From: Thalassovita litoralis
GTDB taxonomy: Bacteria > Pseudomonadota > Alphaproteobacteria > Rhodobacterales > Rhodobacteraceae
Direction of reading: 5' to 3'
NCBI RefSeq assembly: GCF_900182725.1
Contig: NZ_FXTO01000023.1
Location: 1 to 53,959 of the forward strand
Length of the DNA stretch: 53,959 nt
Position numbers and translations under genes: made by a program
Notes under the pieces: model-generated
What the model was told of the DNA's origin: nothing
The model's database searches: none
Seen by the model: the letters and a program-made list of their open reading frames with translations, nothing else
Part shown: positions 21,028-40,187 of the stretch, piece after piece
How the letters are laid out: every line of letters starts with the position of its first letter
How positions within the stretch are numbered: the first letter of the stretch is position 1

Positions 21028-21053
21028 GTCATTCTCCGGGCAAAGGGAATGCG

Positions 21054-21082
21054 GCAGGCGGCCAGCCTGTTGGGCCGCCTGC
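21054..21082 (-). other. Intercistronic stem-loop after TRAP binding-protein gene
   Basis: GCAGGCGGC (21054-21062) and GCCGCCTGC (21074-21082) form a perfect 9-bp stem with an 11-base loop, placed between dctP-type and dctQ-type genes. There is no U-tract on the minus strand. It parallels the hairpins at 11032 and 41258. Confidence 0.55.
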
Positions 21083-21117
21083 GGATGTTTTCGAACGGTT
21101 GTCGAAAGATCGGGGAA

Positions 21118-22101: not shown

Positions 22102-22171
22102 GTCTCTTACTCCTCCTGAAGAGTTCGGGCGCCGAATCTGGCAGCTCACAAGAAAGCTATCCATTGCAGAA

Positions 22172-22192
22172 TATATATGCAAGACATATATA
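22172..22192. promoter_or_regulatory. Perfect 21-bp palindrome, probable MarR operator
   Basis: TATATATG-CAAGA-CATATATA has two perfect 8-bp arms and a 5-bp spacer. It sits between the divergent starts of the TRAP binding protein (22101) and the MarR regulator (22259), where it could overlap the promoters of both. Size and symmetry fit a dimeric MarR site. Confidence 0.7.
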
Positions 22193-22258
22193 CTATGTAC
22201 TGCATTGTTGCTATTTATGCGGCGGCGCGGCAAAACGGATGGAACAGGAAACAACTTG

Positions 22259-23727: not shown

Positions 23728-23747
23728 CCAAACTTAGATATCTTTGG
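23728..23747. promoter_or_regulatory. Imperfect dyad in LysR/thiolase promoter
   Basis: CCAAA and TTTGG flank a 10-base centre that contains AGATATC. It lies 9 bases upstream of the LysR start and 69 bases upstream of the thiolase start, a usual place for an autoregulating LysR site. Confidence 0.4.
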
Positions 23748-23815
23748 ACAAAATTCTATTTGTTGAATTGATCGGTCAAGCGCAGAATTCGCCCGCACCA
23801 GACGGAGGAGCCACG

Positions 23816-24997
23816 ATGACCAAGACTATTGTTGCCGGTGTCGGCATGACCAAATTCGCCAAACCCGGCGCATCCGAAACCTATGACGTGATGGCCGAGG
23901 ATGCGATCCGTCAGGCATTGAAGGACGCCGGGATCGGGTTCGAAGATATTCAACAGGCCTATGCCGGGTATGTTTATGGCGACAGCACCTGTGGGCAAAA
24001 AGCGATTTATCGCGTTGGCATGACCGGGATTCCGGTGGTCAATGTGAACAATAACTGCTCCACCGGATCGACGGCGCTGTTTCTGGCGCGACAGGCGATT
24101 GAATACGGGATTGCCGATTGCGTGCTGGCTGTAGGGTTTGAACAGATGCAGCCCGGCGCGTTGGCATCGGTCTTTACTGACCGGCCCAGCCCGTTCGCGG
24201 ATTTCGATACCACCTGTGATGCGCTGGTCGACAATGCCGATATTCCGCTGGCGTTGCGCTATTTCGGGGGCGCAGGCAAAAGCCACATGGACAAATACGG
24301 CACCACGCTGGAAGATTTCGCCCGCATCCGCGCCAAGGCCAGCCGCCATGCCACCCGCAACCCGCTGGCGCTGTTCGATAAGGAAGTCTCGGTCGAGGAT
24401 GTGATGCAGGCGCCGGTGATGTGGCCCGGCGTGATGACGCGCCTGATGGCCTGCCCGCCCACCTGTGGCGGCGCGGCGGCGATCCTGTGTTCCGAAGATT
24501 TCGCACGCAAACACGGGATCGACAGCCGGGTTCAGATCACCGCGCAGGCGATGACCACGGACACCCCCGCCACCTTTGACGCGCGGGACATGATGCAATT
24601 GGTTGGCTACGACATGACTGCCGATGCCGCCCGTCAGGTTTACGAAGCCGCCGGGATCGGGGCCGAGGATGTGGATGTGGTCGAACTGCATGACTGTTTC
24701 GCCCATAACGAATTGATCACCTACGAAGGGCTGGGCCTGTGTCCCGAAGGTGGGGCGCAGAAGTTCATTGCCGATGGCGACAACACCTATGGCGGGAAAT
24801 ATGTGACGAACCCATCGGGCGGGCTGCTGAGCAAGGGGCACCCGCTGGGCGCGACCGGGCTGGCACAGTGTTATGAACTGACAGGTCAATTGCGCGGCAC
24901 CGCCGGGCAGCGGCAGGTTGAAGGCGCCAAAGTGGCGCTACAGCACAATCTGGGCCTTGGCGGGGCTTGTGTGGTCACGCTGTATCAACGCGCCTGA
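23816..24997 (+). CDS. Thiolase-fold acetyl-CoA acetyltransferase (SCP-x/lipid-transfer type)
   Basis: The 393-residue paralogue of the thiolase at 17964. It has VAGVGMTKFAKPG at the start, nucleophile C81 in NNNCSTGSTA, HDCFAHNE and LLSKGHPLGATGLAQCYELT. ATG 23816 follows GGAGGAG. It is transcribed alone, convergent with the carboxylase-type operon whose last gene ends at 25046. The gene lies directly beside an operon predicted to make a beta-ketoacyl-CoA, so it is the natural candidate for the cleaving step, though separate regulation by LysR leaves this open. Confidence 0.85.
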   Translation: MTKTIVAGVGMTKFAKPGASETYDVMAEDAIRQALKDAGIGFEDIQQAYAGYVYGDSTCGQKAIYRVGMTGIPVVNVNNNCSTGSTALFLARQAIEYGIADCVLAVGFEQMQPGALASVFTDRPSPFADFDTTCDALVDNADIPLALRYFGGAGKSHMDKYGTTLEDFARIRAKASRHATRNPLALFDKEVSVEDVMQAPVMWPGVMTRLMACPPTCGGAAAILCSEDFARKHGIDSRVQITAQAMTTDTPATFDARDMMQLVGYDMTADAARQVYEAAGIGAEDVDVVELHDCFAHNELITYEGLGLCPEGGAQKFIADGDNTYGGKYVTNPSGGLLSKGHPLGATGLAQCYELTGQLRGTAGQRQVEGAKVALQHNLGLGGACVVTLYQRA

Positions 24998-25045: not shown

Positions 25046-25873
25046 TTAGCCCCGGCCTTCGTGATGCCGGATTGCGGCTTCCATGACCCGGCGCATGGCC
25101 TTGCGGCGAAAACCCCAGACCTGCGCGAACCAGTTGCCGAAACGTGGGAACCAGATGAACGGCATATGCGTCCATGCCGGAACCGTGTTGCGGCGTTTGC
25201 GGCCCATGATCATGCGTTCTGCCGTCCATGCCGCCCACGACAGCGGGAATTCAAAGAACAACAGTTTCGAAGTCGACTGGATCAGCCCGCCATAGGTATC
25301 TTCGTAGATCGCGCCGTCAATCAGTGGGGTGCGGATAAAGGTGGGGTGGATCGTGCCGACCTCGACCCCCCAGCCATACATTTCGCCGCGAAAGGATTCC
25401 GCCAAATTCAGCACCGCCGCTTTGGAGGCAACATAGGAGCCAGCAAAAGGCAGTGCCACTGTTGAACTGATGGAGGACGTGATCAACACATACCCGGCGC
25501 TGTCGCGCAGATAGGTGGCTGTCGCCCTGAGTGTGCGAAACACGCCGTTCAGGTTGATGTCGATCACCTGAAGCCATTCGTCCTCTTCGGCCAGCATCAG
25601 GGGCTTGGCCCGCGCGATTCCGGCGTTGGCCCAAACCACATCAATCCGCCCGAAGTGGGCCGCGGTCTTGTCGGCGGCGGCCTGAAGCCCGGCCATGTCG
25701 CGCACCGATCCTTCGATCGTCAGAATGTCGCCGCCTAATTGAGCGGCTAAAGCATCCAGTTCCGGTTTGTTGATATCAAACAGCGCCAGCTTGCAGCCCT
25801 TACGGTGCAGCCGTTCAACCGTTGCCCGCCCGATACCTGTTGCCGCCCCGGTGACAAAAACCACCTTGGTCAT
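25046..25873 (-). CDS. SDR-family oxidoreductase with basic/hydrophobic C-terminus
   Basis: The 275-residue SDR has TGAATGIG, LFDIN (acidic, NAD-type), ANAG, TSSISS and YVASK with IHPTFIRTP. After about residue 205 it has an extension rich in tryptophan, phenylalanine and arginine (FEFPLSWAAW, MPFIWFPRF, WGFRRKAMRR), which suggests peripheral membrane contact, as in SDRs that handle lipid-like substrates. Last gene of the eight-gene carboxylase-type operon, 39 bp after the ligase. It may oxidise the alcohol to the ketone that is carboxylated, comparable in role to phenylethanol dehydrogenase of the acetophenone pathway. That comparison is inference. Confidence 0.83.
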   Translation of the reverse strand: MTKVVFVTGAATGIGRATVERLHRKGCKLALFDINKPELDALAAQLGGDILTIEGSVRDMAGLQAAADKTAAHFGRIDVVWANAGIARAKPLMLAEEDEWLQVIDINLNGVFRTLRATATYLRDSAGYVLITSSISSTVALPFAGSYVASKAAVLNLAESFRGEMYGWGVEVGTIHPTFIRTPLIDGAIYEDTYGGLIQSTSKLLFFEFPLSWAAWTAERMIMGRKRRNTVPAWTHMPFIWFPRFGNWFAQVWGFRRKAMRRVMEAAIRHHEGRG

Positions 25874-25912: not shown

Positions 25913-27463
25913 TTAAATCTGACGCCCGGCGCCTTCCCAGTATTGTTGGCGCAGGTCTTTTTTCAGCAGCTTGCCGACCGGGCTTTTGGGCAGGGTGTCT
26001 ACGAAATCCACCGTTTTGGGGGATTTGACGCTGCCCAGTTCGCCTTTGCAATAGGCGATCAGATCATCCGCGCTGATCTCGGCCCCGGCTTTCAGTTGTA
26101 CCACGGCTTTGACCGCCTCGCCCCATTTGTCATCCGGCACACCAATCACGGCGGCTTCGTGGACTGCGGGGTGCTGCATCAGCCAGTTTTCGATTTCCGA
26201 CGGGAACACGTTCAGCCCGCCGGTGATGATCATGTCCTTGGTGCGGTCCAGAATGCGCAGGTATCCGTGGTCGTCCAGCGTGCCGACATCGCCGGTATGG
26301 TGCCAGCCGTGGGTGGATACTTCGGCGGTGGCTTCGGGGTTTTGGTAATATTCAGACATCACCAGCGCCGAGCGGCAGACGATCTCGCCCTTTTCCCCGG
26401 CGGGCAGGATGTTCCCGTCTTCGTCCATGATCGCCACCTTGGCAAAGGGCGAGGCGCGGCCCACGGTATCCATCCGATCCGCGCGCAAGGTGCCATTCGC
26501 GTCATAGCAATCGGCAGGGGTCAGCACCGTCAGGATCGCCAGCGCCTCGGTCTGGCCATAAAGCTGCACCCAGACCGGGCCAAGCAATTCGGCCACTTCG
26601 CGGGCACGGTCGGGGGCCATCGGCGCGCCGGTGGAAATGAAGCTGCGCAGCGACGAAAAATCAGCTTCGGCCACGTTCGGCTGGGCCATGATCGCGAGCG
26701 TGGCGGTGGGCGGCAGGAAGGTTTCCGTCACCCCGTATTTCGCAATATCCGAGATGAAAAGCTGTGGGTTGATGCCGTCGTGGAACAGGATCGTGCCGCC
26801 CATCGTCATCACCGGAAAGGCGTAGGCGCCTGCGGCGTGGGTCATCGGTGCGGCGGCCAGATACACGGTGTCGGCGTCAAAGGTCAGCGTCGACAGCATA
26901 TTGGCGATAAAGCAATCCCATGACCGACACGGCATGACCACGCCCTTGGGTTTGCCCGTCGTGCCGCCGGTGCCTGCAATCACCTGCGCGCGTTCATCAT
27001 CCCACGGCAGTGCGATGGGATCGGTGCCTGCGTCCTTGATGAATTCCGCAAGGGTGGGGCCGTGATCGCTGTTGTCGTCCAGACAGACCAACAGTTTCAG
27101 GCTTGGCACTTCGGCTTTGATGCGATCCAGAATGCCCTCGTACGCTTTGGTAAAGAACAGAACCTGCGCTTCGACCAGCCCCAGAAAATCGCAATGCGCC
27201 TGCACCGCGTTCTTGGCGTTGACCGGCAACCAGATACAGCCCGCCCGCAGGATGCCAAGACAGGCGTTAAAGGCCAGCGGGTTGTTATCGCTCATCACCG
27301 CGCATTTGTCGCCCAGCCCGAACCCGTTATTGCGCAGCGCGTTGGCGATGCGGCTGTTTTGGTCGGCTGCCTGGGCATAGGTGGTTTCGGTGCCGTCAAA
27401 GATAAAGACGGGTTTATCGGGGTTGGCCAGAACGCCACGGTCAAAATGTTCGATCAGGTTCAT
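25913..27463 (-). CDS. Acyl-CoA synthetase, probable beta-keto acid CoA ligase
   Basis: The 516-residue class I adenylate-forming enzyme has P-loop AGTGGTTGKPKG up to residue 174, LYGQTEAL, HTGDVGT...DRTKDMIITGGLNVFPSEIE and catalytic K498 in KSPVGKLLKKD. ATG 27463 has AAGGAGAG upstream. It sits directly after the carboxylase-like subunits (13-bp gap), the same place as the benzoylacetate-CoA ligase after apcABCDE in Aromatoleum. It therefore probably activates the unstable beta-keto acid product of the carboxylase. Paralogue of the ligase at 16399. Confidence 0.87.
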   Translation of the reverse strand: MNLIEHFDRGVLANPDKPVFIFDGTETTYAQAADQNSRIANALRNNGFGLGDKCAVMSDNNPLAFNACLGILRAGCIWLPVNAKNAVQAHCDFLGLVEAQVLFFTKAYEGILDRIKAEVPSLKLLVCLDDNSDHGPTLAEFIKDAGTDPIALPWDDERAQVIAGTGGTTGKPKGVVMPCRSWDCFIANMLSTLTFDADTVYLAAAPMTHAAGAYAFPVMTMGGTILFHDGINPQLFISDIAKYGVTETFLPPTATLAIMAQPNVAEADFSSLRSFISTGAPMAPDRAREVAELLGPVWVQLYGQTEALAILTVLTPADCYDANGTLRADRMDTVGRASPFAKVAIMDEDGNILPAGEKGEIVCRSALVMSEYYQNPEATAEVSTHGWHHTGDVGTLDDHGYLRILDRTKDMIITGGLNVFPSEIENWLMQHPAVHEAAVIGVPDDKWGEAVKAVVQLKAGAEISADDLIAYCKGELGSVKSPKTVDFVDTLPKSPVGKLLKKDLRQQYWEGAGRQI

Positions 27464-27476: not shown

Positions 27477-28286
27477 TCACAGGCCACGATGCAGGCGCAA
27501 ACGGGCCAATACTGTTTCGGGTTCCGCATCGGCGGGGATGGTCGCATAGATCGCCTGAGCAACCGGATCGGCCTGCAATCCGTTCGCGGCCCAAACGCCA
27601 TCCAACCCCTTGGGGGTGAATACGATGTCGGCGCTCATGGGGCTTGTGATATCCGCCTGCGTTGCCAGTGCCAGATGCCAGCGCATGTGACTGGCAAGGT
27701 TTGACAGCGGGTTCAGCGCCCATTTGTAATTCGCATCCGCCGCTTCGCCATCGGGATCAACGATCATGATAAACGCCCCGGCGGGTTGCCCCAGCGACCC
27801 AAGGAAATCGGTCAGGTAGACCGCCGCACGTTCGCAATCGTCTTCGCCAATCTGCGGCAGGGGGGTGCCATAGGCGAATTCATGCGCCATATTCAGCAGT
27901 CGCAGCGGCGACGACACCGACAAGGCCAGCGGCTTTGATTTGCGGGCATCTGCCGTAACATTACACAGCCCCGATACCAATGCCCGCAGGCCGGGATCCC
28001 CCATCAGCGTTTTGAGCGGATAGCTGGACCGCGCCCGATAGGTCATTTTATCCTTCATATGCGGGTTGCGGTGCAGATAGGCCGCAATCACCCGGTCCAG
28101 ATCAATCGGTGCAATCGCCGGGTCCAGCAGGCCCAGAATTTGGCGGTAAAACCCATCAAATTCGCCGGGGGTCAGCCAAGGGGCTTCGCCGCCTTTCAGG
28201 AACAGGGTTTGGGCGTAGTCCCAGAAGTCCAGCCATACCAGCGGGCTTTCCAATCCGGGGAATTTTTCGGTCAGGTCGCGTGTCAT
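27477..28286 (-). CDS. Unknown 269-aa protein in the ApcE position
   Basis: I recognise no family. The protein is about 30 kDa, acidic, without signal peptide or membrane segment. It has a tryptophan-rich N-terminal part (VWLDFWDYAQTLFL, EAPWLTPGEFDGFY) and a segment YLHRNPHMKDKMTYRARSSY. The start ATG 28286 follows GAGGG; it lies 10 bp after the HyuB/UbiB fusion gene and 13 bp before the ligase. In acetophenone carboxylase a fifth subunit of about 34 kDa is encoded at exactly this place (apcE). Position and size suggest an accessory subunit, but sequence similarity to ApcE could not be tested. Confidence 0.6.
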   Translation of the reverse strand: MTRDLTEKFPGLESPLVWLDFWDYAQTLFLKGGEAPWLTPGEFDGFYRQILGLLDPAIAPIDLDRVIAAYLHRNPHMKDKMTYRARSSYPLKTLMGDPGLRALVSGLCNVTADARKSKPLALSVSSPLRLLNMAHEFAYGTPLPQIGEDDCERAAVYLTDFLGSLGQPAGAFIMIVDPDGEAADANYKWALNPLSNLASHMRWHLALATQADITSPMSADIVFTPKGLDGVWAANGLQADPVAQAIYATIPADAEPETVLARLRLHRGL

Positions 28287-28296: not shown

Positions 28297-31200
28297 TCAA
28301 ACATATTCGCTGTCATCCACATCCACCCCAAGCGTGCGGCGGATTTCGCGCAGCAGGTCGCGCCGCGACGCCGCCAGCAGGAAGGGATCGTTCAGTGGTA
28401 GCTTGCCATCGCGGAAAATCAGCCGCGGCAGTTCGTGCCGTGTGTATTCCACCACATCAAATTCCGGGTCGATTTCATGGACGAGGCCGGAAATCGTGAT
28501 GTCGCCCACCATTAGCATCACCAGTTCACGATCCAGCGGGACACGGTGTTTGCGCAGGTTCATCATGATCTGGAGCCAGAGTGTGGTCAGGTCTTTGGTG
28601 TGGCCCTTGGCGCGGTTTTTGTCCCAACGCTGATACATCTTGTGCAGATCGTGGCTTAGGGCTTCCTTGGTTTTTTCATCCGCCATCCACGGACGGTCCC
28701 CAAGATAGTTGTCGCCCTGTAACCAGCCATCCACAGCCGCCACGCACAGATAGGCGCGCAACTGGCGTTTGATGTAATAGTTGGGGAATTCATGGGCCAG
28801 CCCGGTATCCAACAGCACCGCCTTGCCCTCGCCCTCGATCAGGATGTTGCCCGAGTGCAGATCGGCGTGGAAGAACTTGTTGGAAAAGGCCATGTCGAAA
28901 TACATCGAATAGATGTTCCGGGCCAGGTCCGGGTCATGCTTGCCGCGCTTGCGCACGTAATCCAACGCCTTGTCGCCATTGATGAATTCCATCGTGATCA
29001 CTTCGCCCGATGAAAACGCGTCATAGACGTCCGGCAGACGCAGCCAGTCCTTTTCGGCGAAGTCGCGGGCAAAGCGGCGGTTGTTGTCGATCTCCAGCCG
29101 GAAATCCATCTGCCCGCGCACGGCCGCGCCCAGTTCGCTCAGCATTTCGCGGGGGTTCATGCCCTTGAAGCCCGGAACGATGGCGCTCAGAACGCCAGTC
29201 ATGGTGCCAAGCGCCTTCAGGTCGTCGGTCACACCTGCTTCCAGATTGGGGCGCTTGACCTTCACGGCCACTTCGCGCCCGTCTTTCAGCCGTGCCTTAT
29301 GCACCTGCGCGACCGAGGCCGAGGCGATAGGCGCATCTGGGAAGTCGTCGAAAATCTCCTCGACCTTGCGGCCAAGGCTGCGTTCGATGATCTGACGGGC
29401 AAGCCCGTGTTTCATTGGCGGCACGTTGTCCTGAAGGTTGCGCAACTGTTCTGCCACCCGCACACCCAACAGGTCTGGCCGGGTCGAAAGCACCTGCCCC
29501 AGCTTCACAAAGGTGGGGCCACAGGCCACCAGATAGCTGACCAGATGCTTACCGATTTTATCTTGCCAGCGCCCCATGCGGGTGCCGCGCTTGGCCAGAA
29601 GCGAGGTAGCCCCCGACGCCGCGACTTTCGTCAGCATCCACCCCAGAAGCCCTTGCACGCGCAGGAACTTGCGGAACGAAGACAGCGTCCACGGTTTTTT
29701 CATTTCCTCGGCGATGGGATCGTATTCGATCTCGTCATCTGTCGAAACGCCCGACACCACGCGGCGGTTCAGGACTGCCTCGTACACCATTTTGGGGTCG
29801 GGTAGCATGATTTCACGCGGGAATTCGCCGGGCATTTCCTTGTACATGCCGCCATAGATTTCCGGGTCATCATTCCATCGCCCGAAATACAGCAGCCCCA
29901 CGGGCGGCGAGGGTTTGACGTGATCCGCAACAAACTGATCCCATGTTTTACCGCGTTTGATGCGGGCCATGCGTTCAGCGCGGCGGGCCTCTTGGGTCTT
30001 TGCCTCGTCTACCAGCATCGTTTTGGGGTCATAGGCGATGTGATAGATATGGCTGGCGGTCCAGTCGGAAATCAGCCCTTCGCGCAGATCCTTGATGATC
30101 GCCGCAGGTTCGCGTTCCAGACAATCGCCATAGGCCCCGGCGGCACCCTGATGGATGACGTATAGTTCCCCCTCGAACGCCAGTTCAAATTCCAGCGCCC
30201 CGGCGCAGGTTTCGTAACTGGCCCCTTTGAAGGGACGTTTGTTCAGCAGATCAACGACATCCGCATCATATCCTGCGGTGCCTTCGGCCAAGGCCTCGAA
30301 GACGTTTAAGCCTTTGATTTTCGTGATCGGATAGCAAGGCGATCCATAGCCGCCAAAAATCCCAAAGGTTGACGGAAAACGCGACCCGTTGGTGATCGCC
30401 TGAAAGCCGAACGTCGATTTGCCATAGCGTGCGTGCATCGTCTGATACCCGGCGCCACCGCGGTATTTGCCGAATGTGGACAGGTCACGGTTAAACTTTT
30501 TCGACGAAAACATGACGATCGGCAGGTCTTCTTCGGTCTGTTCGGTTTCGCCCACGTCGTTCATCTGGGCAAAGTTGGCACAGATCGAATGTTCACCATC
30601 CCGGTTCCAGCGCGCGCCGCCCGCCATGCCGTTCAGGTCGGCGCAGACATTACCCACCTCGTTGCCGTGCTGGGTTGTGCCGCCGTACATCATGCCTGCG
30701 GGCTGGTTATACCACGGTGCCTTGATCGTCGCGTGTTTCTGCGGCACCTGAAACATCAGCTTGGTCAGCGCCAGTTCGGTCGCTGTGATCAGCTTGAACC
30801 CGGTGGATACGTTTTGTGAGTTTGGCACGTCATAGGAACAATCCAGCAGGCTTTTGGGATCGGTGACAAATTCCACATGTTCGATGATCGCCGGGGATTT
30901 GGGCAGGTCCGGCCAAAAGAAGTTCATCAGCGGCACCATCGTGCCCAGTTTGGCGGTGACAATCGTGGCGTTGATCGAACGGTTGTGCAATTCGGGCGAG
31001 GAGCCGCGCAGATCAACCACGATCCGGTTATCCGGGGTCACGGTGATGGCAAAGTTGACCTTTAGCATCGCCGTTTCGCGCGAGGTTGAATCGATATAAA
31101 ACTGGCTGCGCACCGTGCCGCGCGGCAGTTCAGCAATACGGCGCTTGGTTTCGTCGGCCACCAGTTCCATCGTGTGACGCATGGTGCCAACGACCGCGTC

Positions 31201-32019
31201 CAGCCCGTAATCGGCGACCGCCTTGTCGTATTCTTCGGCCAGTCGCACACAGGTTGCCAACCGGGCGCGCAGGTCGACCAGCATCACCTCTTTTTCGCGG
31301 ACCGAGTTTTGAAGCAGCGTGACCAGATCGGATTTAAGTTGATAATTCTCGGCAATCTTGATGGGTGAACCGCGGAAGCCTTCCTCGTAGGGGCTTTCGA
31401 TGGACGGCCCCATGCCACCGGGCGCACGGGCGCCGATTTCGCCTTCGTGCATGGCGCAGACGGTCCATGACACTAGCTCGCCATCCACAAAATGCGGCAT
31501 GACCATCGACTGATCGGGGTTATGAATGCCACCAAACCGTGCGTCGTTCATGATGAAGGCATCGCCGGGGCGGATGCTGACGGTGGGATCGTTTTGCCAG
31601 TACTTCAGGATGTGGCGCACCGGATAGTGCATGACCACGGCAAAGGCCGCCACGCCCCGGTTCGCCAATAGCGCCACATCGCCAATCGACGTCATATAAG
31701 CGGTGGACAGGTCCGCGACCTTGGCCGCAGGCGCGGCCACGGTCTGTTCCGCGATTTCGAAATTTTCATCCAGAACCGAAGTCAGCCGCGCGCGGATTTC
31801 CTGAAACAGGTTCAGGTCAATATCGCCAGACAGAACCCGCTCTTCCCGTGCGCTGCGCGGGCCAAGGCGGTGGTCATACAGGATGTCCGAATCCGGCCCG
31901 ACGAAACCTGAATTGGTGGTCAGGAAGTCATCGAACAGTTTTTGTTCTTCGGCGTTGAAGCCAAAGTCATTTTCATCCGCAAAGGCCCCATTCAGCCCGG
32001 TTTGCAAATCAAGTGTCAT
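28297..32019 (-). CDS. HyuB-like carboxylase subunit fused to UbiB/ABC1/AarF kinase-like domain
   Basis: A single unbroken 1240-residue frame. Residues about 50-770 are hydantoinase B/oxoprolinase-like, as in the large subunits AcxB and ApcD, with FIMNDARFGGIHNPDQ (155-170), AMHEGEIGARAPGG (189-202) and a glycine-rich GGYGSPCYPITKIKG. Residues about 785-1200 are a UbiB/ABC1/AarF protein-kinase-like ATPase: the signature FVKLGQVLSTRPDLL (K839, Q842), alanine-rich loop PIASASVAQVH (897-907), invariant lysine K920 in VAVKV, HADLHSGN (D1053, N1058) and LDTG with D1071 in the DFG position. All key kinase-fold residues are kept, so it is probably an active ATPase. ABC1 proteins normally act alone in ubiquinone biosynthesis; fusion to a carboxylase subunit is unusual. 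The ATG at 32019 is 14 bp after the HyuA-like gene. Confidence 0.88.
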   Translation of the reverse strand: MTLDLQTGLNGAFADENDFGFNAEEQKLFDDFLTTNSGFVGPDSDILYDHRLGPRSAREERVLSGDIDLNLFQEIRARLTSVLDENFEIAEQTVAAPAAKVADLSTAYMTSIGDVALLANRGVAAFAVVMHYPVRHILKYWQNDPTVSIRPGDAFIMNDARFGGIHNPDQSMVMPHFVDGELVSWTVCAMHEGEIGARAPGGMGPSIESPYEEGFRGSPIKIAENYQLKSDLVTLLQNSVREKEVMLVDLRARLATCVRLAEEYDKAVADYGLDAVVGTMRHTMELVADETKRRIAELPRGTVRSQFYIDSTSRETAMLKVNFAITVTPDNRIVVDLRGSSPELHNRSINATIVTAKLGTMVPLMNFFWPDLPKSPAIIEHVEFVTDPKSLLDCSYDVPNSQNVSTGFKLITATELALTKLMFQVPQKHATIKAPWYNQPAGMMYGGTTQHGNEVGNVCADLNGMAGGARWNRDGEHSICANFAQMNDVGETEQTEEDLPIVMFSSKKFNRDLSTFGKYRGGAGYQTMHARYGKSTFGFQAITNGSRFPSTFGIFGGYGSPCYPITKIKGLNVFEALAEGTAGYDADVVDLLNKRPFKGASYETCAGALEFELAFEGELYVIHQGAAGAYGDCLEREPAAIIKDLREGLISDWTASHIYHIAYDPKTMLVDEAKTQEARRAERMARIKRGKTWDQFVADHVKPSPPVGLLYFGRWNDDPEIYGGMYKEMPGEFPREIMLPDPKMVYEAVLNRRVVSGVSTDDEIEYDPIAEEMKKPWTLSSFRKFLRVQGLLGWMLTKVAASGATSLLAKRGTRMGRWQDKIGKHLVSYLVACGPTFVKLGQVLSTRPDLLGVRVAEQLRNLQDNVPPMKHGLARQIIERSLGRKVEEIFDDFPDAPIASASVAQVHKARLKDGREVAVKVKRPNLEAGVTDDLKALGTMTGVLSAIVPGFKGMNPREMLSELGAAVRGQMDFRLEIDNNRRFARDFAEKDWLRLPDVYDAFSSGEVITMEFINGDKALDYVRKRGKHDPDLARNIYSMYFDMAFSNKFFHADLHSGNILIEGEGKAVLLDTGLAHEFPNYYIKRQLRAYLCVAAVDGWLQGDNYLGDRPWMADEKTKEALSHDLHKMYQRWDKNRAKGHTKDLTTLWLQIMMNLRKHRVPLDRELVMLMVGDITISGLVHEIDPEFDVVEYTRHELPRLIFRDGKLPLNDPFLLAASRRDLLREIRRTLGVDVDDSEYV

Positions 32020-32033: not shown

Positions 32034-34193
32034 TTACCCTTGCCCATGATTGCGCATCAGCCAGACCGCGCCATTGGCGGCGGCCTCCATGCGCCAGCCG
32101 GGTTCAACCAGATATGTGGTATTGCCGGGGTTGATGATTGCCGGGCCTTGAATGACCGTGCCGGGGGTCAGCGCCTGCCCGTCGAAACAGGGCGTTTCAA
32201 CCGCGCCTTCGGTGCCGACAAAATGGCAGGTGCGCATGTTCACCGGCTTTGGCGCGGCGATTTTCTTGTGCGGCGGGATCACGTTGCCCATGTCCACGCC
32301 GTCATCATCAACAAAGGTGGCGACCCGGAAATTGACGATCCAGACACCGCTTTCGGGGGCAGGGGTGCCTTTGCCGAACCGCTGTTCAAAATTGGTGGCC
32401 AGCTTGCCCACCAGATCCAGCAGATCGCGAATACCTTCAAACCGGCTTTTGTCGACGATAACGGCGGCTTCCATTTTTTGGCTGCCATAGCGCATGTCGA
32501 CCTCAAGCCGATGGCGGGCTTTGTCTGCACCGATCCCCTGCCGCGCCAGTTCATCCCGGCCACGGGTTTCCAGCTTTTCGACGATCTTATTCAGCGCGTC
32601 GAAGTCCTGCCAGAACACCATTTTCTTGGGCTTGGTACCGATCTTGCGCAGGTTGCAGATCGGGATCATCTGGGTGTGTTCATGGAAATGCAGCGGGCTC
32701 ATGGATGCGCCGCCCGCTGCGGAAAACACCGACGAATAGGGCGGCACCAGAACCTTGTCGATCCCGGCCACCCGCGCAATGCCGCAGGCGTGCAATGGAC
32801 CGTTGCCGCCATAGGCCAGCATGGTGAAATCCTGCGGCAGATAGCCCTTGGTGCGCAATTCGCGCTGCACCCCGGTGGCCATGTCGCGGTCGGCGGTGGA
32901 TTTAATCAGCTTGGCTGCCTCGATCTCATCAATGTCCATATCGTCGGCGATGTCCTCCATCGCCATCAGGGACCGCACCCGCCGCAGCGGGATCTTGCCC
33001 GAGGCATAGTTATCCACGTCCAGATAGCCCAGCAGCAGGTCGGCGTCCGTCACCGTGGGGTTCAGGCCGCCCCGGTCGTAACAGGCGGGGCCGGGCTGCG
33101 AGCCTGCGGATTTCGGGCCGACCTTGATCGCCTTATAGACCGGATCGTAGCTGGCGATGGACCCACCCCCCGATCCCAGCGTGACAAGATGCACCATCGG
33201 CGTTGTCACCAGCCAGCGGCCAATGACCGGCTGAAAGTCGTAATGCTTCACCCCGCCTTCGGTGATCAGGCCAATGTCAAAGGACGTGCCGCCCATATCG
33301 GTGGCTATCACATTCCCCAGCTCCGAAGTTTTCGACAGGTGTTCAGAGGCATGAATGCCCGCCACCGGCCCCGAATGCACGGTTTGTAGCGCGTCGGTGG
33401 AATTAAGCTGGGCCATGCCGCCAGTGTTGTGAACCAGCAGCATCGGCTTGGTATAGCCCTGCTCGCCCAGGTTGACCTCAAGATCGGCCATCGCGTGATA
33501 CATGATGCCGTGCAGATAAGCGTCCATGATGGTGGACGATGCGCGGACATATTCGCCTTTGCGCCCCGAAACCTGATGCGACAGGATCACCGGGATCGCC
33601 CCCAAAAGATGCGAGGGGTATTCTTCGGCCACGATTTCCTGAACCCGCAATTCATGCGCGGGGTTGGATGTGGCATGGGCCAGACACACCACAAGCACCT
33701 GAATGCCCTCGTCCATCAAATCCTTGAGCTGATGGCGCAGGCGGTCTTCGTCAAATGCCTGAATGACGTGGCCCGAGGCGTCCATACGTTCGTTCACACC
33801 GCGCACCAGCGACAGCGGGATCAGTGCTTCGGGGCGGTCGGCGTTGGTCAGGTCGCGGACGGTTTCCAGATCCAGCCCTTCGCCATAGCCGCGCCCGCGT
33901 GAAATGGCAGTTGTCGCCTCGAACCCGTGGGTGACAAGCAGGCCCATCTTCGGTCCCGTGCGTTCGATAATCGCGTTGGTGCCAAGCGTGGTGGCATAAC
34001 GGATCGAGTCAACATTGCGATACAGCGTGTCGGGCGCGATATTCAGCGTTTCACAGGCGTTTTTCACCGCCTCGTTAAAGCCAAGCGCAAGGTTGAAATG
34101 CGTGGTCAGGGCCTTGGACTGCACGATCTGGCTGTTGTGGATGACAAGGCAATCGGTGAAGGTGCCGCCGATGTCTACTGCAATACGGTTCAT
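32034..34193 (-). CDS. HyuA/AcxA/ApcC-like ATP-binding carboxylase subunit (719 aa)
   Basis: This protein belongs to the hydantoinase A/oxoprolinase family, which also contains acetone and acetophenone carboxylase subunits. The N-terminal acetate-kinase-like fold starts with VDIGGTFTDCLV (about 6-17); further sites are TTLGTNAIIERTG, HNTGGMAQL, ATDMGGTSFDIGL and LGSGGGSIA. These bind ATP and phosphorylate the enolate or bicarbonate in the known ketone carboxylases. The length of 719 matches the larger HyuA-like subunits (AcxA, ApcC). It is between the small zinc subunit gene (18-bp gap) and the HyuB fusion (14-bp gap). A hydantoinase or oxoprolinase function is unlikely because of the zinc-subunit partner. 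Confidence 0.88.
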   Translation of the reverse strand: MNRIAVDIGGTFTDCLVIHNSQIVQSKALTTHFNLALGFNEAVKNACETLNIAPDTLYRNVDSIRYATTLGTNAIIERTGPKMGLLVTHGFEATTAISRGRGYGEGLDLETVRDLTNADRPEALIPLSLVRGVNERMDASGHVIQAFDEDRLRHQLKDLMDEGIQVLVVCLAHATSNPAHELRVQEIVAEEYPSHLLGAIPVILSHQVSGRKGEYVRASSTIMDAYLHGIMYHAMADLEVNLGEQGYTKPMLLVHNTGGMAQLNSTDALQTVHSGPVAGIHASEHLSKTSELGNVIATDMGGTSFDIGLITEGGVKHYDFQPVIGRWLVTTPMVHLVTLGSGGGSIASYDPVYKAIKVGPKSAGSQPGPACYDRGGLNPTVTDADLLLGYLDVDNYASGKIPLRRVRSLMAMEDIADDMDIDEIEAAKLIKSTADRDMATGVQRELRTKGYLPQDFTMLAYGGNGPLHACGIARVAGIDKVLVPPYSSVFSAAGGASMSPLHFHEHTQMIPICNLRKIGTKPKKMVFWQDFDALNKIVEKLETRGRDELARQGIGADKARHRLEVDMRYGSQKMEAAVIVDKSRFEGIRDLLDLVGKLATNFEQRFGKGTPAPESGVWIVNFRVATFVDDDGVDMGNVIPPHKKIAAPKPVNMRTCHFVGTEGAVETPCFDGQALTPGTVIQGPAIINPGNTTYLVEPGWRMEAAANGAVWLMRNHGQG

Positions 34194-34211: not shown

Positions 34212-34610
34212 TCAGAATTGCGGGCGGTCAGATGGGAAATCGGCGTCTGATCCACGGTCCAACACCTGCGGGCCACGTTTGGCCCATTGTGCCTTGAGCG
34301 CGTCGATATCGAGTTCGATGTCATGCACCGGCATATGGCCCGGCACCTGATATTCGGTTTCGATCATCGTGCCGCAGCCGGGGCAGTAGAATTCATAGAT
34401 CACGCACAGTTCAGGATCGGGTGCGAAGGTGTAATCGAAGCTTTTGTCGTCGATCAGCGGGCGATGCACCTCGCGCGGGTCGCGGGCATGGATCAGAGTG
34501 CCCTTTTTGTAGTTCTCATGCGCCGAGATCAGCTTGTGCCCGCAGCATTTGCATTCCCAATGCTCATGTTGAAGGTCGATGACCAGATATTCGGTGACCT
34601 GGATTTTCAT
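34212..34610 (-). CDS. Acetone carboxylase gamma / ApcB-like zinc-ribbon small subunit
   Basis: The 132-residue protein matches the acetone carboxylase gamma subunit pattern: EHWECKCCGH near the N-terminus (C20, C22, C23), an IHARDPREVHRP strand, then EFYCPGCGTMIETEY (C76, C79) and a final HDIELDIDALKAQW. The two cysteine pairs would hold a zinc ion. In known enzymes this 15-kDa subunit is part of the core complex with the HyuA-like subunit. ATG 34610 follows GAGGGAA; a GTG at 34625 would overlap the upstream stop. This small subunit is the strongest argument that the neighbouring HyuA/HyuB genes form a carboxylase and not a hydantoinase. Confidence 0.87.
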   Translation of the reverse strand: MKIQVTEYLVIDLQHEHWECKCCGHKLISAHENYKKGTLIHARDPREVHRPLIDDKSFDYTFAPDPELCVIYEFYCPGCGTMIETEYQVPGHMPVHDIELDIDALKAQWAKRGPQVLDRGSDADFPSDRPQF

Positions 34611-34621
34611 GGTTGTTTCCC

Positions 34622-36544
34622 TCACCTGTAAGTCAGTTCAATGTCGCCCGCCGGAGTGACCGCAAAGGTCCAGCCGGGCAAAACGGGCAGGGTGAAATAG
34701 GCGTCTTCGATGATTGCGGGGCCGCTGGCGGTCATGCCTGCGCGCAGGTCATCCACCAGATACAGCGGTACGGTGTCATCCTTGCCGCCGCTGAACCGCA
34801 CCGTGCGCTTGCCGCGCGGTTTGATTGGTTCCGACGCGGTGGTGCCGTTGGTCCGGTGGTTGTGACCCAGTGAATAGCTGGCGACCAGTTCCAGCACGGA
34901 TGATCCCGGTGCCAGTTTGGTCAGGGTCGTGGCCACGTCGTCGCCCGCGATTTTTTGCGCCGGGGCGTCGCCCGTGGTGAGGGTCCATGCCAGCGTGCAA
35001 TCGTCCAGCGCGAAGCCTTCGGCGAACATATCTTGCCGCGCGCGGGCCAACAGGGCCGCAATGCGCGCCTGTGCCGCTTCGGGGCTGTCTGGCCCGGTCA
35101 GCAGATCATCATAACGGTGGCCGATGTCGCTTTCACCAATGCCGGATGCAGAAAACACCGCCGCCATTGATGGCACGATGATGCGCTTCGCACCCACGGC
35201 TTCGGCTACGGCACAGATCGAAAACGGTCCCGCCCCGCCAAAAGCACCCAGAACGGTTTCCGGTGTCATATATCGGCTCAGGTGTTGGGCCACGGCTTTG
35301 ACCCAGGCATCCTCAGCCGCGTCAACGGCTGCGGCCAGATCCAGCCCCAAAGGTTCGGCAATATCGCGCAGGATTGCCGCCTCGGCCCGCTTGCGGTCAA
35401 GCTGCATCCGCCCGCCGAAGTAATGGTCGGGATCAATCACGCCTTTCAGCAGTTTCACATCGGTGATGGTGGCCTGCGTGCCACCGAACCCGAAACAGGC
35501 CGGGCCGGGGGCTGCGCCCACGCTTTGCGGGCCGACCTTGATTTCGCCGCTGTCCGCCCGGATCACGGACCCGCCACCCACACCGATCGAGCGCAGATCA
35601 GACATCGGGATCGACACGCCGACAGTTTCCAGTTTGCCAAAGGCATGGCGCACCGCCTGCCCCTTGTCCACCACGCCGAAGTCGGTGGTCGTGCCGCCCA
35701 CATCGACCGTCACCAGATGGTCATAGCCATGCGCCCCCGCCAGCGCCACGGCACCGCAAACCCCGCCTTCGGGACCGGAGCCATAGGTCTTGATCGCCGG
35801 GGTTTTCGCCACGCGCCCGGCCAGCCCGTCATTGCGGAACACCAAAAGCGGCGCGGAAAAGTTCATCGCTTTCAGTCGGTTGTCGGTGTTGAACAGGAAC
35901 CGTTCCATCGCCGGATGCAGGAACGCGTTCAAAACGGCGGTCCATGTCGCGCGGGCGCGATCCGGGTCTGCCGTCACGTCCGAGGTTTTCAGGATCGGCA
36001 CAGTCCCCAGAAGATGTTGCGGGAAACGACGTGCTGCCAGCCGTTGCAGCGCCTTTTCAGCCCGGCCCGAACCAAAGCTGACCACGATCCGATTGGCCCC
36101 GCGTGCGGTCAGGCGGTTCACGACCTCCATCACCTGTGCGCCGATCAGGTCGTCATCCTGTGCGGCCTCTTCCAGAACAACGGGGTCCATGACCTCGATC
36201 CGGTCGCCGATCAGGGTTTCAAACATCTCGGCGGTTTCGCTGTCGCCCTCGCGCATTTCGGTTGCCGTGGCTTTGGAGGCCAAGATCAGACCAATGCGCG
36301 GCCCCTTGCGCTGTACCAGCGCATTGGTGCCTTGGGTGGTGGAATAGCGGATATATTTCGTATCCGCCAAAAGCCGCCCGATATCGGGTTTGCGATAGAT
36401 GTCTTCGGACAGCAGGCGCAGCCCTTCGAACAGGCATTCCGACAGATCGTGTGGTGTGGTGCGGGTTTTTACGCGGAATTTACGCTCCGCATCAAAGGCC
36501 CAGAAATCGGTGAACGTGCCACCGTTATCGACATTGATATACAT
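34622..36544 (-). CDS. HyuA/ApcA-like ATP-binding carboxylase subunit (640 aa)
   Basis: Second hydantoinase A-type protein of the operon, only distantly similar to the one at 32034. It has VDNGGTFTDFWAF at the start (Asn where the usual motif has Ile), TTQGTNALVQRKG, TVDVGGTTTDFGVV and SIGVGGGSVIR. About 68 kDa, close to the 70-kDa ApcA of acetophenone carboxylase, and it stands first in the A-B-C-D order as apcA does. Having two different HyuA-like subunits plus a gamma-type subunit is the special feature of acetophenone carboxylase compared with acetone carboxylase. It starts 34 bp after the SDR gene. Confidence 0.87.
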   Translation of the reverse strand: MYINVDNGGTFTDFWAFDAERKFRVKTRTTPHDLSECLFEGLRLLSEDIYRKPDIGRLLADTKYIRYSTTQGTNALVQRKGPRIGLILASKATATEMREGDSETAEMFETLIGDRIEVMDPVVLEEAAQDDDLIGAQVMEVVNRLTARGANRIVVSFGSGRAEKALQRLAARRFPQHLLGTVPILKTSDVTADPDRARATWTAVLNAFLHPAMERFLFNTDNRLKAMNFSAPLLVFRNDGLAGRVAKTPAIKTYGSGPEGGVCGAVALAGAHGYDHLVTVDVGGTTTDFGVVDKGQAVRHAFGKLETVGVSIPMSDLRSIGVGGGSVIRADSGEIKVGPQSVGAAPGPACFGFGGTQATITDVKLLKGVIDPDHYFGGRMQLDRKRAEAAILRDIAEPLGLDLAAAVDAAEDAWVKAVAQHLSRYMTPETVLGAFGGAGPFSICAVAEAVGAKRIIVPSMAAVFSASGIGESDIGHRYDDLLTGPDSPEAAQARIAALLARARQDMFAEGFALDDCTLAWTLTTGDAPAQKIAGDDVATTLTKLAPGSSVLELVASYSLGHNHRTNGTTASEPIKPRGKRTVRFSGGKDDTVPLYLVDDLRAGMTASGPAIIEDAYFTLPVLPGWTFAVTPAGDIELTYR

Positions 36545-36578: not shown

Positions 36579-37349
36579 TCAATAGCCGGTCAGAAGTTTG
36601 TAGATGCCGCGCGACCACGATCCCAAAAGCCGCACGATGATATTCAGCGCCACGGCATCAAGCCCGACACGGTGCAACACGCCGCGCTTGTGCGCCGCTT
36701 TCCAAACCGCTTGGGCGAGCTTGGTGGGTTTGACCTTGACGCCCAGCTTGTCGACGGACGCGGCCTTTTGCGTGGCCTCAAGGATCATCGGCGTTTGCAC
36801 ATAGGCGACCAGAATGGCGCTGACGTTGATGTCATGACGTGCCCATTCGATATTCATCGCCTCGGTAAAACCGCGCACAAAGAACTTGGTCCCCGAATAG
36901 ATCGCGTGATCCGGCGTGCCATATTCGGCTGAGGTGGAGGACATCGAAATCACATGCGCCCCCGGTGTGGATTTCAGCGCCTTGAAGGCCGCATTGCAGC
37001 AGTTGACCACGCCCTTGATATTGACGTCGATTGTCAGGTCTTGCTGTTCTTGGGGGATGGTTTCGTTGGGTGCCATGAACACCACGCCCGCGCTGTTGAA
37101 CAGCACATCCAGTCGCCCGCCGGTTCTGTCTGTGAAAGCCGCGACCATGTCGCGCACGCTTTCGATATTGCGGACATCCACCGTCAGGGGAACCGCGTTG
37201 GGGCCGATTTCGTCGGCGGCGGCCTTGGCCGCAGCACCGTTCACGTCGGCAATGCCCACAAGCCAGTTTTTCGATGCAAAAAGCCGGGCCGTTTCCCGAC
37301 CAATTCCAGACCCCCCACCCGTGATGAGGATCGTCTTTTGGTGTGCCAT
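36579..37349 (-). CDS. SDR-family oxidoreductase, first gene of the carboxylase-type operon
   Basis: The 256-residue SDR has TGGGSGIG (12-19 region), IADVN (NAD-type), FNSAG instead of NNAG, SMSSTSAEYG and YSGTK, and LVAYVQTPMI in place of the common PG motif. The C-terminal VALNIIVRLLGSWSRGIYKLL is hydrophobic and basic, again suggesting membrane association. ATG 37349 is preceded by GGGAGGAAAAT. As leader gene it may supply the ketone by oxidising a secondary alcohol. A second SDR ends the operon. Confidence 0.85.
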   Translation of the reverse strand: MAHQKTILITGGGSGIGRETARLFASKNWLVGIADVNGAAAKAAADEIGPNAVPLTVDVRNIESVRDMVAAFTDRTGGRLDVLFNSAGVVFMAPNETIPQEQQDLTIDVNIKGVVNCCNAAFKALKSTPGAHVISMSSTSAEYGTPDHAIYSGTKFFVRGFTEAMNIEWARHDINVSAILVAYVQTPMILEATQKAASVDKLGVKVKPTKLAQAVWKAAHKRGVLHRVGLDAVALNIIVRLLGSWSRGIYKLLTGY

Positions 37350-37420
37350 ATTTTCCTCCCACACGCCTCCACGTGTGAGAAACAGATTAGCGCCGCCGCA
37401 GAACGGGGGGTTCGTCCGAA

Positions 37421-37469: not shown

Positions 37470-40187
37470 TCAGGCGGTGCCGATCAGCCCCAGACGCCGC
37501 GCCGTTGCCGCGGCTTCGGTACGATTCGCGGCCATCAGTTTGCCGTTGATATTGCGCAGATGGGTTTTCACCGTGGGCAGCGAAATGGACAGCACATCGG
37601 CAATGGCCTGATTGCTGCATCCCTTAGACATTTCCTGTAACACCGCCAGTTCCCTGCGGCTTAGCGGTTCCAGCGGAAGATGCTGACGATAGGGGGGCAG
37701 ATCACGGGCCGGGCCGCTGGGGTCCAGCCGGTCCAGCCCCCCGGCGGGCAGGTCGATTTGTTGCGCGGTGGCGCACTGAACAAAGGCCCGCCGCACAGCA
37801 TCGGGGGCGCGTAATACCGGACGCGTCAGCCCTTCGCGGCGGATCAGCACCAGCACCTCGGCCATTGTGGTTTCGGCGGCGGTGGTGTTGCCCGCCTGCA
37901 TTTCCAGTTCGACAAGCAGCACATTCAGCCTGCACAGCGCCAGAATATTCCCGGCCTTCCGGGCCGCGATTATGGCCGCATCCAAAATCACGCGCGCGGC
38001 GTCTTGCCTGCCGCCGATCATTTCCCCCAAGGCGCGGGTTTCGGCCACGAACGCGCCATCGTAATGCGCCAAACGGTCGTCAGTTCCCGCGCGTTCCAGA
38101 TAATCCTGCGCGGCCCCCAGATCACCGCGTCGCGCTGCCATTTGTGCCTGCATGGCCCAAGCTGCGGCTTCGATCCGGCCATTTCCACGGGTCCGCCCGG
38201 TTTTGCGCAATTGCCCCAACAACCGGCACGCGCCCGCATAATCATCCCCATCAAAGGCCAGTTCGGCCTGTATCAGGAAAAAATCCAACACTTCGTATGG
38301 CGGGGCAAGCTGTTCCACCAACCCGGCCCAAGGGGCGCATAAATCCAGCGCGTCCTGATCCCGCCCCGTTTCAAAGGCAAGCCGCATCGACAGCATGGCC
38401 GCCGCCATCCGGGCCATCGTTTCGGTATGGGCTTCTTCGGCTACGGCCACCACGGTTTCGGCGTGCATCCGGGCGCTTTCCACGCGGCCTTGCGCCAGTT
38501 CCAACCGGCTAAGGAACCCCTCGGCATAGGTCAGCCCATAGGAAGACCCGCTTTTGCCGTGTTCCACGCGGGCGGCTTGTGCCGTTTGCGCCGCGCCGGA
38601 ATAATCCTGTGCGCAAAGCCGGGCGTAGGATGCGATGTTCCACAGCACGCCCTTGGAAAAGGCCGACATTTCATGATCCGCGGCGATCACGGCGGCGCAA
38701 TGGTCTGCCAGCCCTTCTAATCTGTCGGTCAGCGCGTCGTGGAACGGCCCCAAATAGGCAATTTCGTTGCGCAATTCCCGGCTAAGATCGTTGCGCCGTT
38801 CCAGACTGTCGATCAGCGTCTTTGCGGTGTCGGGCTGTTTTTGCTGGGCGATCAGGCTCCAGGCATAGGCCAGCATGATCTGCGGATATTGGTCCCGCAG
38901 GGGGGCAGGCAATGGTCGCACCCAATGTTCAATCGTCGAAAGCCGCCCGGCAGCGAAGAAATCCATCGCAGAGGCATCAATCAACTGCGCGGCAAGATCC
39001 ATGTCCCCCGCCGCCAGCGCATATGAAATTGCCGTGGATGGGCGCCCCTGTTCGGAAAACCAATGCGCCGCGCGGCTGCGCAGGTGTTTGACCCGATCCG
39101 CGCCCAAGCTATCCACACGCGACAACAGGAAAGACCGGAACAGGTTGTGATACCGAAACCAATCGGTTTCCTGTTCATAGCCGGACAGAAACATGTTGCT
39201 TCGGGCAAGGGTCTGCAACAGCGCGGCGCTGTCATCACGGCCAAGGATCGTATCGCATAATTCAGGCGAAAACTGATCCAGCAGCGCGCTGGCCAGAAGA
39301 AATTCGCGGATACCGGGGCTTTGGCGTTCAAACAGATCCTCGGCCAGATATTCGGCCAGCTCGGTATTGGTGCCGTTGAAGCTGGACAGGACGCTGTCCA
39401 TGTCACGGCTGGACTTGGCGCTAAGAATGGCCATCTGAATGGACCCGATCCAGCCTTCGGTGCTGGAATACAGCGATTCAAGGGTTTGCTTACCGATCCG
39501 CTGCCCCGGCAGTTCCTGACGCAGGACTTGTGCCACTTCGTCTGGGGTAAAGCGCAGATCGCCCGCGCCCAGTTCCAGAAACTGCCCGTGCATCCGCAGG
39601 CGTCCGAATGGCAGATCAGGATAGGTCCGCCCGCCCAGAACCAGCGAACACCCGTTAGGCATTTCTTTCATGATGCGGCTGATGATCCCCAACGCCGCAG
39701 GGTCATGCAACTGGTCCAGATCATCCAGAAACAGGCAAAACCCATCCCGCAACCGCCGCAATACGGCGCTGAGCCGGGAAATCTGGTCCGAGGATGTGAC
39801 GATTTTATCCAGCCCCACGGTTTCCAAGGGGTGCTCTGTTTCGGCATCGCCAAGGGCGGCCAACAAATGAAACAACAGCCGACCGGGATCGTTATCCGCC
39901 GCATCAAGCGTCAGCCACGCTGCATTTTCCGGGTCACGGGACAGAAACCCCTCGCGCAGCAATGTTGTTTTGCCAAACCCGGCAGGGGCATGAACCAAGG
40001 TGACACGGGAAATTGCATTGGCGGCAAAGGTTGTCAAAAACCGCGGACGCGCCAGAGTTTCGCCAAAAACCCGCGGGGGTTCCAGCTTGGAGCGTAGCAA
40101 TACAGGACGAGCGGACCGCGGCACGAGTTTTGAGTATTCCCCTGACTGTAGCGGCCCAAGGCCGCCCCCCTGCGTTGGAAAAACCAT
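37470..40187 (-). CDS. LuxR-family regulator of the MalT-like (LAL) type
   Basis: The 905-residue STAND-ATPase regulator has Walker A HAPAGFGKTTLL (66-77), a Walker B-like LFLDDLDQL, a winged-helix and a long middle part of helical repeats (about 380-820), then a LuxR helix-turn-helix LSRRELAVLQEMSKGCSNQAIADVLSISLPTVKTHL in the last 65 residues. MalT-type proteins oligomerise with ATP and inducer and activate from repeated GGA(T/G)GA boxes. Such boxes lie just downstream, in front of the carboxylase operon transcribed in the same direction. It is thus the probable activator of that operon. It starts 88 bp after the GlxA-type regulator gene. Confidence 0.88.
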   Translation of the reverse strand: MVFPTQGGGLGPLQSGEYSKLVPRSARPVLLRSKLEPPRVFGETLARPRFLTTFAANAISRVTLVHAPAGFGKTTLLREGFLSRDPENAAWLTLDAADNDPGRLLFHLLAALGDAETEHPLETVGLDKIVTSSDQISRLSAVLRRLRDGFCLFLDDLDQLHDPAALGIISRIMKEMPNGCSLVLGGRTYPDLPFGRLRMHGQFLELGAGDLRFTPDEVAQVLRQELPGQRIGKQTLESLYSSTEGWIGSIQMAILSAKSSRDMDSVLSSFNGTNTELAEYLAEDLFERQSPGIREFLLASALLDQFSPELCDTILGRDDSAALLQTLARSNMFLSGYEQETDWFRYHNLFRSFLLSRVDSLGADRVKHLRSRAAHWFSEQGRPSTAISYALAAGDMDLAAQLIDASAMDFFAAGRLSTIEHWVRPLPAPLRDQYPQIMLAYAWSLIAQQKQPDTAKTLIDSLERRNDLSRELRNEIAYLGPFHDALTDRLEGLADHCAAVIAADHEMSAFSKGVLWNIASYARLCAQDYSGAAQTAQAARVEHGKSGSSYGLTYAEGFLSRLELAQGRVESARMHAETVVAVAEEAHTETMARMAAAMLSMRLAFETGRDQDALDLCAPWAGLVEQLAPPYEVLDFFLIQAELAFDGDDYAGACRLLGQLRKTGRTRGNGRIEAAAWAMQAQMAARRGDLGAAQDYLERAGTDDRLAHYDGAFVAETRALGEMIGGRQDAARVILDAAIIAARKAGNILALCRLNVLLVELEMQAGNTTAAETTMAEVLVLIRREGLTRPVLRAPDAVRRAFVQCATAQQIDLPAGGLDRLDPSGPARDLPPYRQHLPLEPLSRRELAVLQEMSKGCSNQAIADVLSISLPTVKTHLRNINGKLMAANRTEAAATARRLGLIGTA

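Follow-up and report, generated by a model that had tools for sequence, protein, structure and literature searches.

An acetophenone carboxylase-type beta subunit joined to a UbiB/ABC1 domain in Thalassovita litoralis

The window analysed here is a stretch of 53,959 nucleotides from Thalassovita litoralis (contig NZ_FXTO01000023.1). A gene on its minus strand, at 28297-32019, encodes a protein of 1240 residues in which a relative of the beta subunit of acetophenone carboxylase (Apc) is joined in one chain to a UbiB/ABC1 domain. The gene belongs to an operon for a putative five-subunit, ATP-dependent ketone carboxylase of the Apc type, the beta subunit of which would have gained a C-terminal UbiB ATPase that loads a hydrophobic ketone, drives movements of the complex, or both. 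Taken as a whole, this proposal is tentative and falls slightly short of an even chance. At the level of sequence and predicted fold, the analysis does show the five subunits, the fusion and the retention of ATP-site residues in alpha, alpha' and the UbiB domain. What is chiefly new is the architecture, the Apc kind of carboxylase being already known.

The use of ATP by UbiB/COQ8 proteins is still debated, and assays of their usual partners are difficult. The UbiB domain described here is joined to an enzyme with a measurable product, so that a point mutant would be a direct test. The fusion also highlights the least understood part of ketone carboxylation, namely how the complex makes its large movements and how a hydrophobic substrate reaches it.

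The fused gene

The gene is a single open frame of 1240 codons with no ambiguous base. The chance probability of a stop-free run of this length is about 10^-18, from base composition alone. Two Pfam families are found in the protein well above their cut-offs, Hydantoinase_B at residues 75-632 (E-value 4.4e-69) and ABC1 at residues 862-1088 (E-value 1.9e-61); the score for ABC1 (PF03109) is 207.8 bits against a gathering score of 22.9. An earlier, sequence-only reading of this DNA had described one uninterrupted frame, HyuB-like and then UbiB, and that description is borne out. The NCBIfam matches, ApcD-like at residues 57-717 and UbiB-like at 816-1197, each lie under the equivalog cut-off. The best PDB sequence match for residues 53-717 is 5l9w_A, an acetophenone carboxylase subunit called delta in the deposition and beta in the structure paper, and the remainder matches mycobacterial and COQ8-type ABC1 proteins. 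The G+C content of third codon positions (GC3), measured in blocks of 62 codons, ranges from 0.61 to 0.85 and averages about 0.70 over the beta portion and 0.76 over the UbiB portion.

The protein is divided into the Apc-beta/HyuB part (residues 1-756; 29752-32019), a linker (residues 757-784; 29668-29751) and the UbiB/ABC1 domain (residues 785-1240; 28300-29667), all on the minus strand. In blastp comparisons with 21 unfused relatives, the beta part is 39.8-45.5% identical to the 17 closer ones and 28.8-34.4% to the remaining four. The linker was placed by aligning the C-termini of 14 relatives, 12 of which end at about window residues 757-769, and its first part overlaps the end of some of them; the other two (L041 and L043) carry longer lysine-alanine tails. 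This refines the limit of about residue 770 given earlier for the HyuB-like region. In the whole fused protein no 19-residue window reaches 1.6 on the Kyte-Doolittle scale, the highest value, 1.59, being within the beta part. The UbiB part may also be made separately from an internal start such as M773 (start codons were judged by eye).

The UbiB/ABC1 domain

Across 34 other ABC1 proteins 35 columns show conservation of 95% or more, and the fused domain retains 32 of them. Among the residues kept are K839 and Q842 of the KxGQ motif (KLGQ, residues 839-842; 29494-29505), the kinase-type lysine K920 (VAVK; 29260-29262), E976, D1053 and N1058 of HADLHSGN (residues 1051-1058; 28846-28869), and D1071, all encoded on the minus strand; those that the sequence-only reading had named (K839/Q842, K920, D1053/N1058 and D1071) stand where it placed them. 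It had also called the domain complete; near-complete is the better description. The DFG-type triplet (residues 1071-1073; 28801-28809, minus strand) reads DTG, with D and G kept and T1072 in place of the F found in 32 of the 34 other proteins, and Q970, K1048 and H1076 depart from the conserved residues. When the same leave-out comparison was applied to five other divergent ABC1 members, 35/35, 35/35, 35/36, 34/36 and 32/37 columns were kept. By its sequence, the fused domain sits at the diverged end of the ABC1 proteins compared. Aligned with nine chosen ABC1 proteins, it shows 24.6-31.1% identity, and its core identity to the UbiB proteins of the window's family is mostly 33-40% among the matches listed in the family scan.

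A structure model of residues 700-1240, built from 20 sequences, has a mean predicted local distance difference test score (pLDDT) of 64.7; residues 700-828 are below 50, and the model is good in the kinase core only. Its closest PDB structures are 7cyr (MSMEG_1954), the best fold match, and COQ8A entries, with template modelling (TM) scores of 0.65-0.70 by target length, whereas the other mycobacterial ABC1 entries give 0.48-0.63. The PDB titles of the matched ABC1 proteins include one erythromycin complex. The mycobacterial proteins Rv3197 and MSMEG_1954 we take to be MABP-1; unlike them the domain of the window is fused, and it attains 119 of 800 bits in NF050082, the model of the macrolide-binding ATPase MABP-1. 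With UbiB, COQ8 and ADCK3 the fused domain has in common the fold, KxGQ, the kinase lysine, HAD-H-GN and the D of DFG. It differs from them in being joined to an enzyme, in having DTG for DFG, in lacking a membrane helix and in its place in the tree.

In a tree of 36 ABC1 rows the fused domain lies outside the 23-row UbiB clade of its family (support 100/100; one protein accounts for two of the 23 rows), and this position rules out a recent copy of the genome's own UbiB. The one other ABC1 gene of the genome, on contig C51, is within the usual UbiB clade. The equivalog model of the ubiquinone-synthesis UbiB, TIGR01982, gives the fused domain 269.5 bits and requires 487.55. By these sequence comparisons the fused domain is not the genome's ubiquinone UbiB. 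In the tree it pairs with the ABC1 part of another fused frame (L062, described below) at 84/74; the pairing is weak and was given no weight because both branches are long.

The carboxylase subunits

The published order of the Apc genes, apcABCD(E), is alpha', gamma, alpha, beta, epsilon (PMC5214803, cited, like the other papers below, from excerpts). The operon of the window, on the minus strand, has the order short-chain dehydrogenase (SDR) 1, alpha', gamma, alpha, beta-UbiB, epsilon, CoA ligase, SDR2, and a thiolase gene lies farther on, on the plus strand. Both alpha-type subunits have, by eye, the phosphate and adenosine motifs of ASKHA ATP-binding proteins: DNGGTFTD, DVGGTTTD and GGAGP in the Apc-alpha'-like subunit (gene order A; 34622-36544, minus strand), and DIGGTFTD, DMGGTSFD and GGNGP in the Apc-alpha-like subunit (gene order C; 32034-34193, minus strand). 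A pattern search for the R/KERiDsxG fingerprint, a feature expected of alpha only, found no full match in either; by eye, alpha has NERMDASG and alpha' nothing similar. The Apc-gamma-like subunit (34212-34625, minus strand) contains six cysteines, among them the four looked for, C25, C28, C81 and C84, arranged as two CX2C pairs.

The fifth subunit is less easily recognized. The gene at 27477-28286 (minus strand) encodes 269 residues with no significant Pfam family, and a PDB sequence search with the protein did not retrieve ApcE. Its AlphaFold model, made from 11 sequences, has a mean pLDDT of 82.5 and a predicted TM score (pTM) of 0.85. The first structural match of the model is the solved ApcE, 9fou (E-value 7e-6, 15% identity, TM 0.62/0.60), and the second is uroporphyrinogen decarboxylase. 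Relatives of the gene were found by blast in 13 of 17 other operons, the match in L048 being weak (5e-5). In the remaining operons an unlike 295-residue gene occupies the position (L026), the contig ends first (L047), or unlike genes lie elsewhere (L049 and L051). On the strength of the predicted fold the gene is taken as that of epsilon, and therefore all five Apc parts are considered present. A replacement of epsilon by the UbiB domain was ruled out, the epsilon-like gene being present with a fold of its own. The alignment of its relatives could serve to build a family model of the subunit.

The nearest characterized system is ApcABCDE of Aromatoleum aromaticum EbN1 (5l9w for the core, 9fou for ApcE). 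It shares with the window the gene order, two ATP-binding alpha-type subunits, a cysteine-rich gamma, a beta, an epsilon of similar predicted fold and a downstream CoA ligase gene. The window differs from it in the UbiB domain of beta, in the equivalog cut-offs, which are not attained, and in a MalT-type regulator where two-component systems are reported for EbN1 in the excerpts of PMC4729919. According to the same excerpts, the CoA ligase gene bal of Aromatoleum is within the apc operon, and the alcohol dehydrogenase gene ped is in a neighbouring operon of the same cluster. Acetone carboxylase (Acx) is described in the excerpted part of PMC5214803 as having one alpha subunit, three genes and no epsilon, unlike the operon of the window with its two alpha-type subunits and epsilon-like gene.

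Unfused Apc-like operons are present in Rhodococcus jostii (pRHL2), Neorhizobium petrolearium, Cupriavidus necator (pBB1) and other genomes of the class. They have the same alpha'-gamma-alpha-beta-epsilon order as the window, with a beta identity of 41-46%; in the C. necator operon beta and epsilon are separated by an SDR-like match. Their beta subunits end near the position of the window's linker, with no ABC1 match nearby.

Distribution of the fusion

The fused protein was searched in the family of the window (295 genomes), its class (385), phylum (398), order (390) and genus (9), and in three other families (4, 7 and 149 genomes). These eight scans total 1637 genomes, repeats included, as the groups overlap. 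In the family, class, phylum and order scans, no more than two first-look candidates received a score in the rows listed, so that a weaker copy could escape. Among the matches listed, one over both parts was found in the window's genome alone; in the genus scan none of the eight other genomes matches at 1e-60. A match is present in 1124 plasmid records, in none of which does one place cover 80% of the fused protein, and a genome-contig scan matched nothing but an ABC1 protein from an Acidobacteria bin.

The relatives of the beta part give the same picture. Of 21 such loci, 20 have a complete C-terminus and none of these is fused, the frame stopping 2-53 residues past the match; the remaining locus, L047, runs off its contig. 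An ABC1 match beside the beta relative was found at none of the 21 loci, 17 of which could be seen over 10.7-22.2 kb, and the idea that unfused relatives keep an adjacent ABC1 gene was dropped after those 17 gave no match. In the genomes and loci sampled the fusion is rare. The accompanying claim, that known Apc and Acx enzymes have no UbiB domain, is consistent with the excerpts of the Apc structure paper (PMC5214803) and with the open-licence literature: its full texts mention UbiB alongside neither acetone carboxylase nor acetophenone carboxylase nor hydantoinase, and a looser search of them brought up 14 papers, all lacking the hydantoinase term.

Long ABC1 frames found elsewhere in the family were weighed as further fusions and rejected, with L060 and L062 as the ones scanned for domains. 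By eye the extra length of L061 is spurious, and in L060 and L062 it is a second Pfam domain. In the latter two ABC1 is likewise in frame with an enzyme domain, and the partner enzymes differ from that of the window. At L062:6643-9513 (genome G211, of the same bacterial family) ABC1 is in one frame with a class-III aminotransferase, next to MMPL, LolA-like, ketosynthase-III-like and phosphopantetheinyl transferase genes. At L060:6757-9417 (genome G258) it is followed in one frame by a C-terminal part resembling ATC hydrolase. Stand-alone ABC1 genes of plasmids were tried as markers of ketone degradation and rejected: for the eight neighbourhoods read, out of 25 listed hits from 256 matching records, the PLSDB gene tables, which are incomplete, show neither a hydantoinase nor a ketone carboxylase.

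Possible function of the UbiB domain

The pathway may be drawn after that of EbN1. An SDR would convert a secondary alcohol into a ketone, which would react with HCO3- at the expense of two ATP to give a beta-keto acid, as in Apc, and this acid would be ligated to CoA and then thiolysed. The UbiB domain would act in cis, in the ATP-driven uptake of a hydrophobic ketone and/or in powering the closing movements and the epsilon cycle, as COQ8 streamlines the ubiquinone enzymes. The sequence-only reading had suggested extraction of a lipid-like ketone or extra ATP-driven remodelling, which is reasonable by analogy; the analyses made give no pointer to an isoprenoid ketone, for which no specific search was carried out. 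In its narrower form, in which ATP hydrolysis by the domain is coupled to bringing a sparingly soluble ketone from the side of the membrane into the active hollow of the carboxylase, the proposal is rather unlikely. If it were true, one polypeptide would unite a UbiB ATPase with a defined chemical step, and a simple carboxylation assay could report on what UbiB proteins do with ATP.

Several published observations make such a role conceivable. The kinase sites of Apc are about 50 Å apart, and each cycle is postulated to involve closure of the complex and the binding and release of epsilon (PMC5214803). The C-terminal arm of Apc beta, which embraces gamma (PMC5214803), is the point to which the UbiB domain is attached. 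COQ8B raised the output of CoQ1 about five-fold in an ATP-dependent manner in a reconstituted enzyme set, and its ATPase activity rose ten-fold with the COQ6:COQ3 pair; no phosphorylated intermediate was seen in the excerpted experiments (PMC7615680). UbiB ATPases are proposed to extract coenzyme Q (CoQ) or its precursors from membranes or to deposit CoQ there (PMC8346625). The subunits of the window have also diverged unequally. Compared with the next lowest of 14 members, the window's mean identity is 7.9 points lower for beta, 5.9 for alpha, 3.6 for gamma and 1.0 for alpha'. Its epsilon is not the lowest in mean identity to the other 13, and beta has the longest end branch (1.71) among the 22 rows of the beta tree. 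The extra divergence of beta and alpha was counted in favour of a real adaptation.

A number of points weigh against the proposal. The extra divergence may merely reflect a distant lineage, and the fusion is a single occurrence in the sample, with no second fused genome in which selection could be compared. The carboxylase subunits remain below the NCBIfam acetophenone carboxylase equivalogs (268 bits for beta and 510 for alpha, where 1500 are required; 313 of 1250 for alpha'; 141 of 250 for gamma). The helper function itself is argued by analogy. In the excerpts of PMC7615680, COQ8B co-eluted poorly with its partner enzymes, raised single-enzyme activities marginally or not at all, and phosphorylated COQ3 in vitro, which counts against a simple helper role. 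The DTG triplet and the three altered positions count in the same direction, and the model of the UbiB part does not reveal where the domain is placed on the complex. Hydropathy gives no membrane helix in the fused domain, which weakens a role in membrane extraction. Membrane helices are presumably a feature of the ubiquinone-synthesis UbiB (TIGR01982).

The UbiB domain might instead be a passenger, an ABC1 gene joined by chance between beta and epsilon that contributes little to a carboxylase working as its unfused relatives do. The restriction of the fusion to one genome, the 20 relatives that manage without it and the DTG triplet with the three other altered positions all suit this explanation. 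A free passenger should decay, however, and 32 of the 35 conserved columns are kept despite a domain identity of 25-31%; selection has therefore acted through most of the divergence, perhaps before the fusion. On balance a passenger is improbable. It is about as improbable that the domain serves as a third ATP site solely to change the conformation of the complex and takes no part in handling substrate. Apc is thought to need movements of tens of angstroms and an attachment and detachment cycle of epsilon, and the domain sits on the beta arm that embraces gamma (PMC5214803); the extra divergence, moreover, is largest in beta and alpha. Against this, the unfused relatives presumably perform the same movements with no UbiB domain.

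A regulatory protein kinase, acting on the carboxylase subunits or their partners, has clearly less in its favour and is judged quite improbable. The fused domain retains the KxGQ motif, which we take to be the part responsible for excluding protein substrates. According to PMC8346625, the COQ8 fold bars larger protein substrates from the active site, which likewise opposes a kinase, whereas the kinase-like fold of the model and the in vitro phosphorylation of COQ3 by COQ8B (PMC7615680) speak for one. An artefact of assembly or sequencing that fused two genes would account for the single genome and is very improbable because of the synteny on both sides of the domain: the epsilon and ligase genes follow directly, an insertion would need exact in-frame placement between beta and epsilon, and GC3 is similar in both parts.

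Neighbouring genes

The operon begins with SDR1, a PRK08267-like short-chain dehydrogenase (36579-37364, minus strand). Downstream of epsilon are an acyl-CoA ligase of the AMP-binding type (25913-27463, minus strand; the start was set at 27463, after AAGGAGAG) and SDR2, which has a basic aromatic tail (25046-25873, minus strand). The C-termini of the two dehydrogenases are basic and hydrophobic, as had been claimed, and neither protein has a 19-residue stretch at 1.6 on the Kyte-Doolittle scale. The thiolase (23744-24997, plus strand) is of the SCP2/lipid-transfer type, with PRK08256 above its cut-off and a match from residue 25. The epsilon gene and the thiolases, which the sequence-only reading had not named, characterize the pathway better than the dehydrogenases do.

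A LuxR regulator of the MalT type is encoded at 37470-40187 (minus strand). Similar sequences are near seven of the 17 Apc-like operons (L027, L042-L046 and L048), and these regulators may be ketone-responsive activators.

Farther along, at 11103-22269, there are two sets of tripartite ATP-independent periplasmic (TRAP) transporter genes (DctP/M/Q and DctP/M), a second CoA ligase gene (16399-17952) and a second SCP2-type thiolase gene (17964-19190); their closeness to the carboxylase operon hints at a larger catabolic island. Upstream of the operon, at 41299-44407 and 49059-50615, are genes for a glycine-betaine-type ATP-binding cassette (ABC) transporter and a homologue of the MttB-family trimethylamine methyltransferase.

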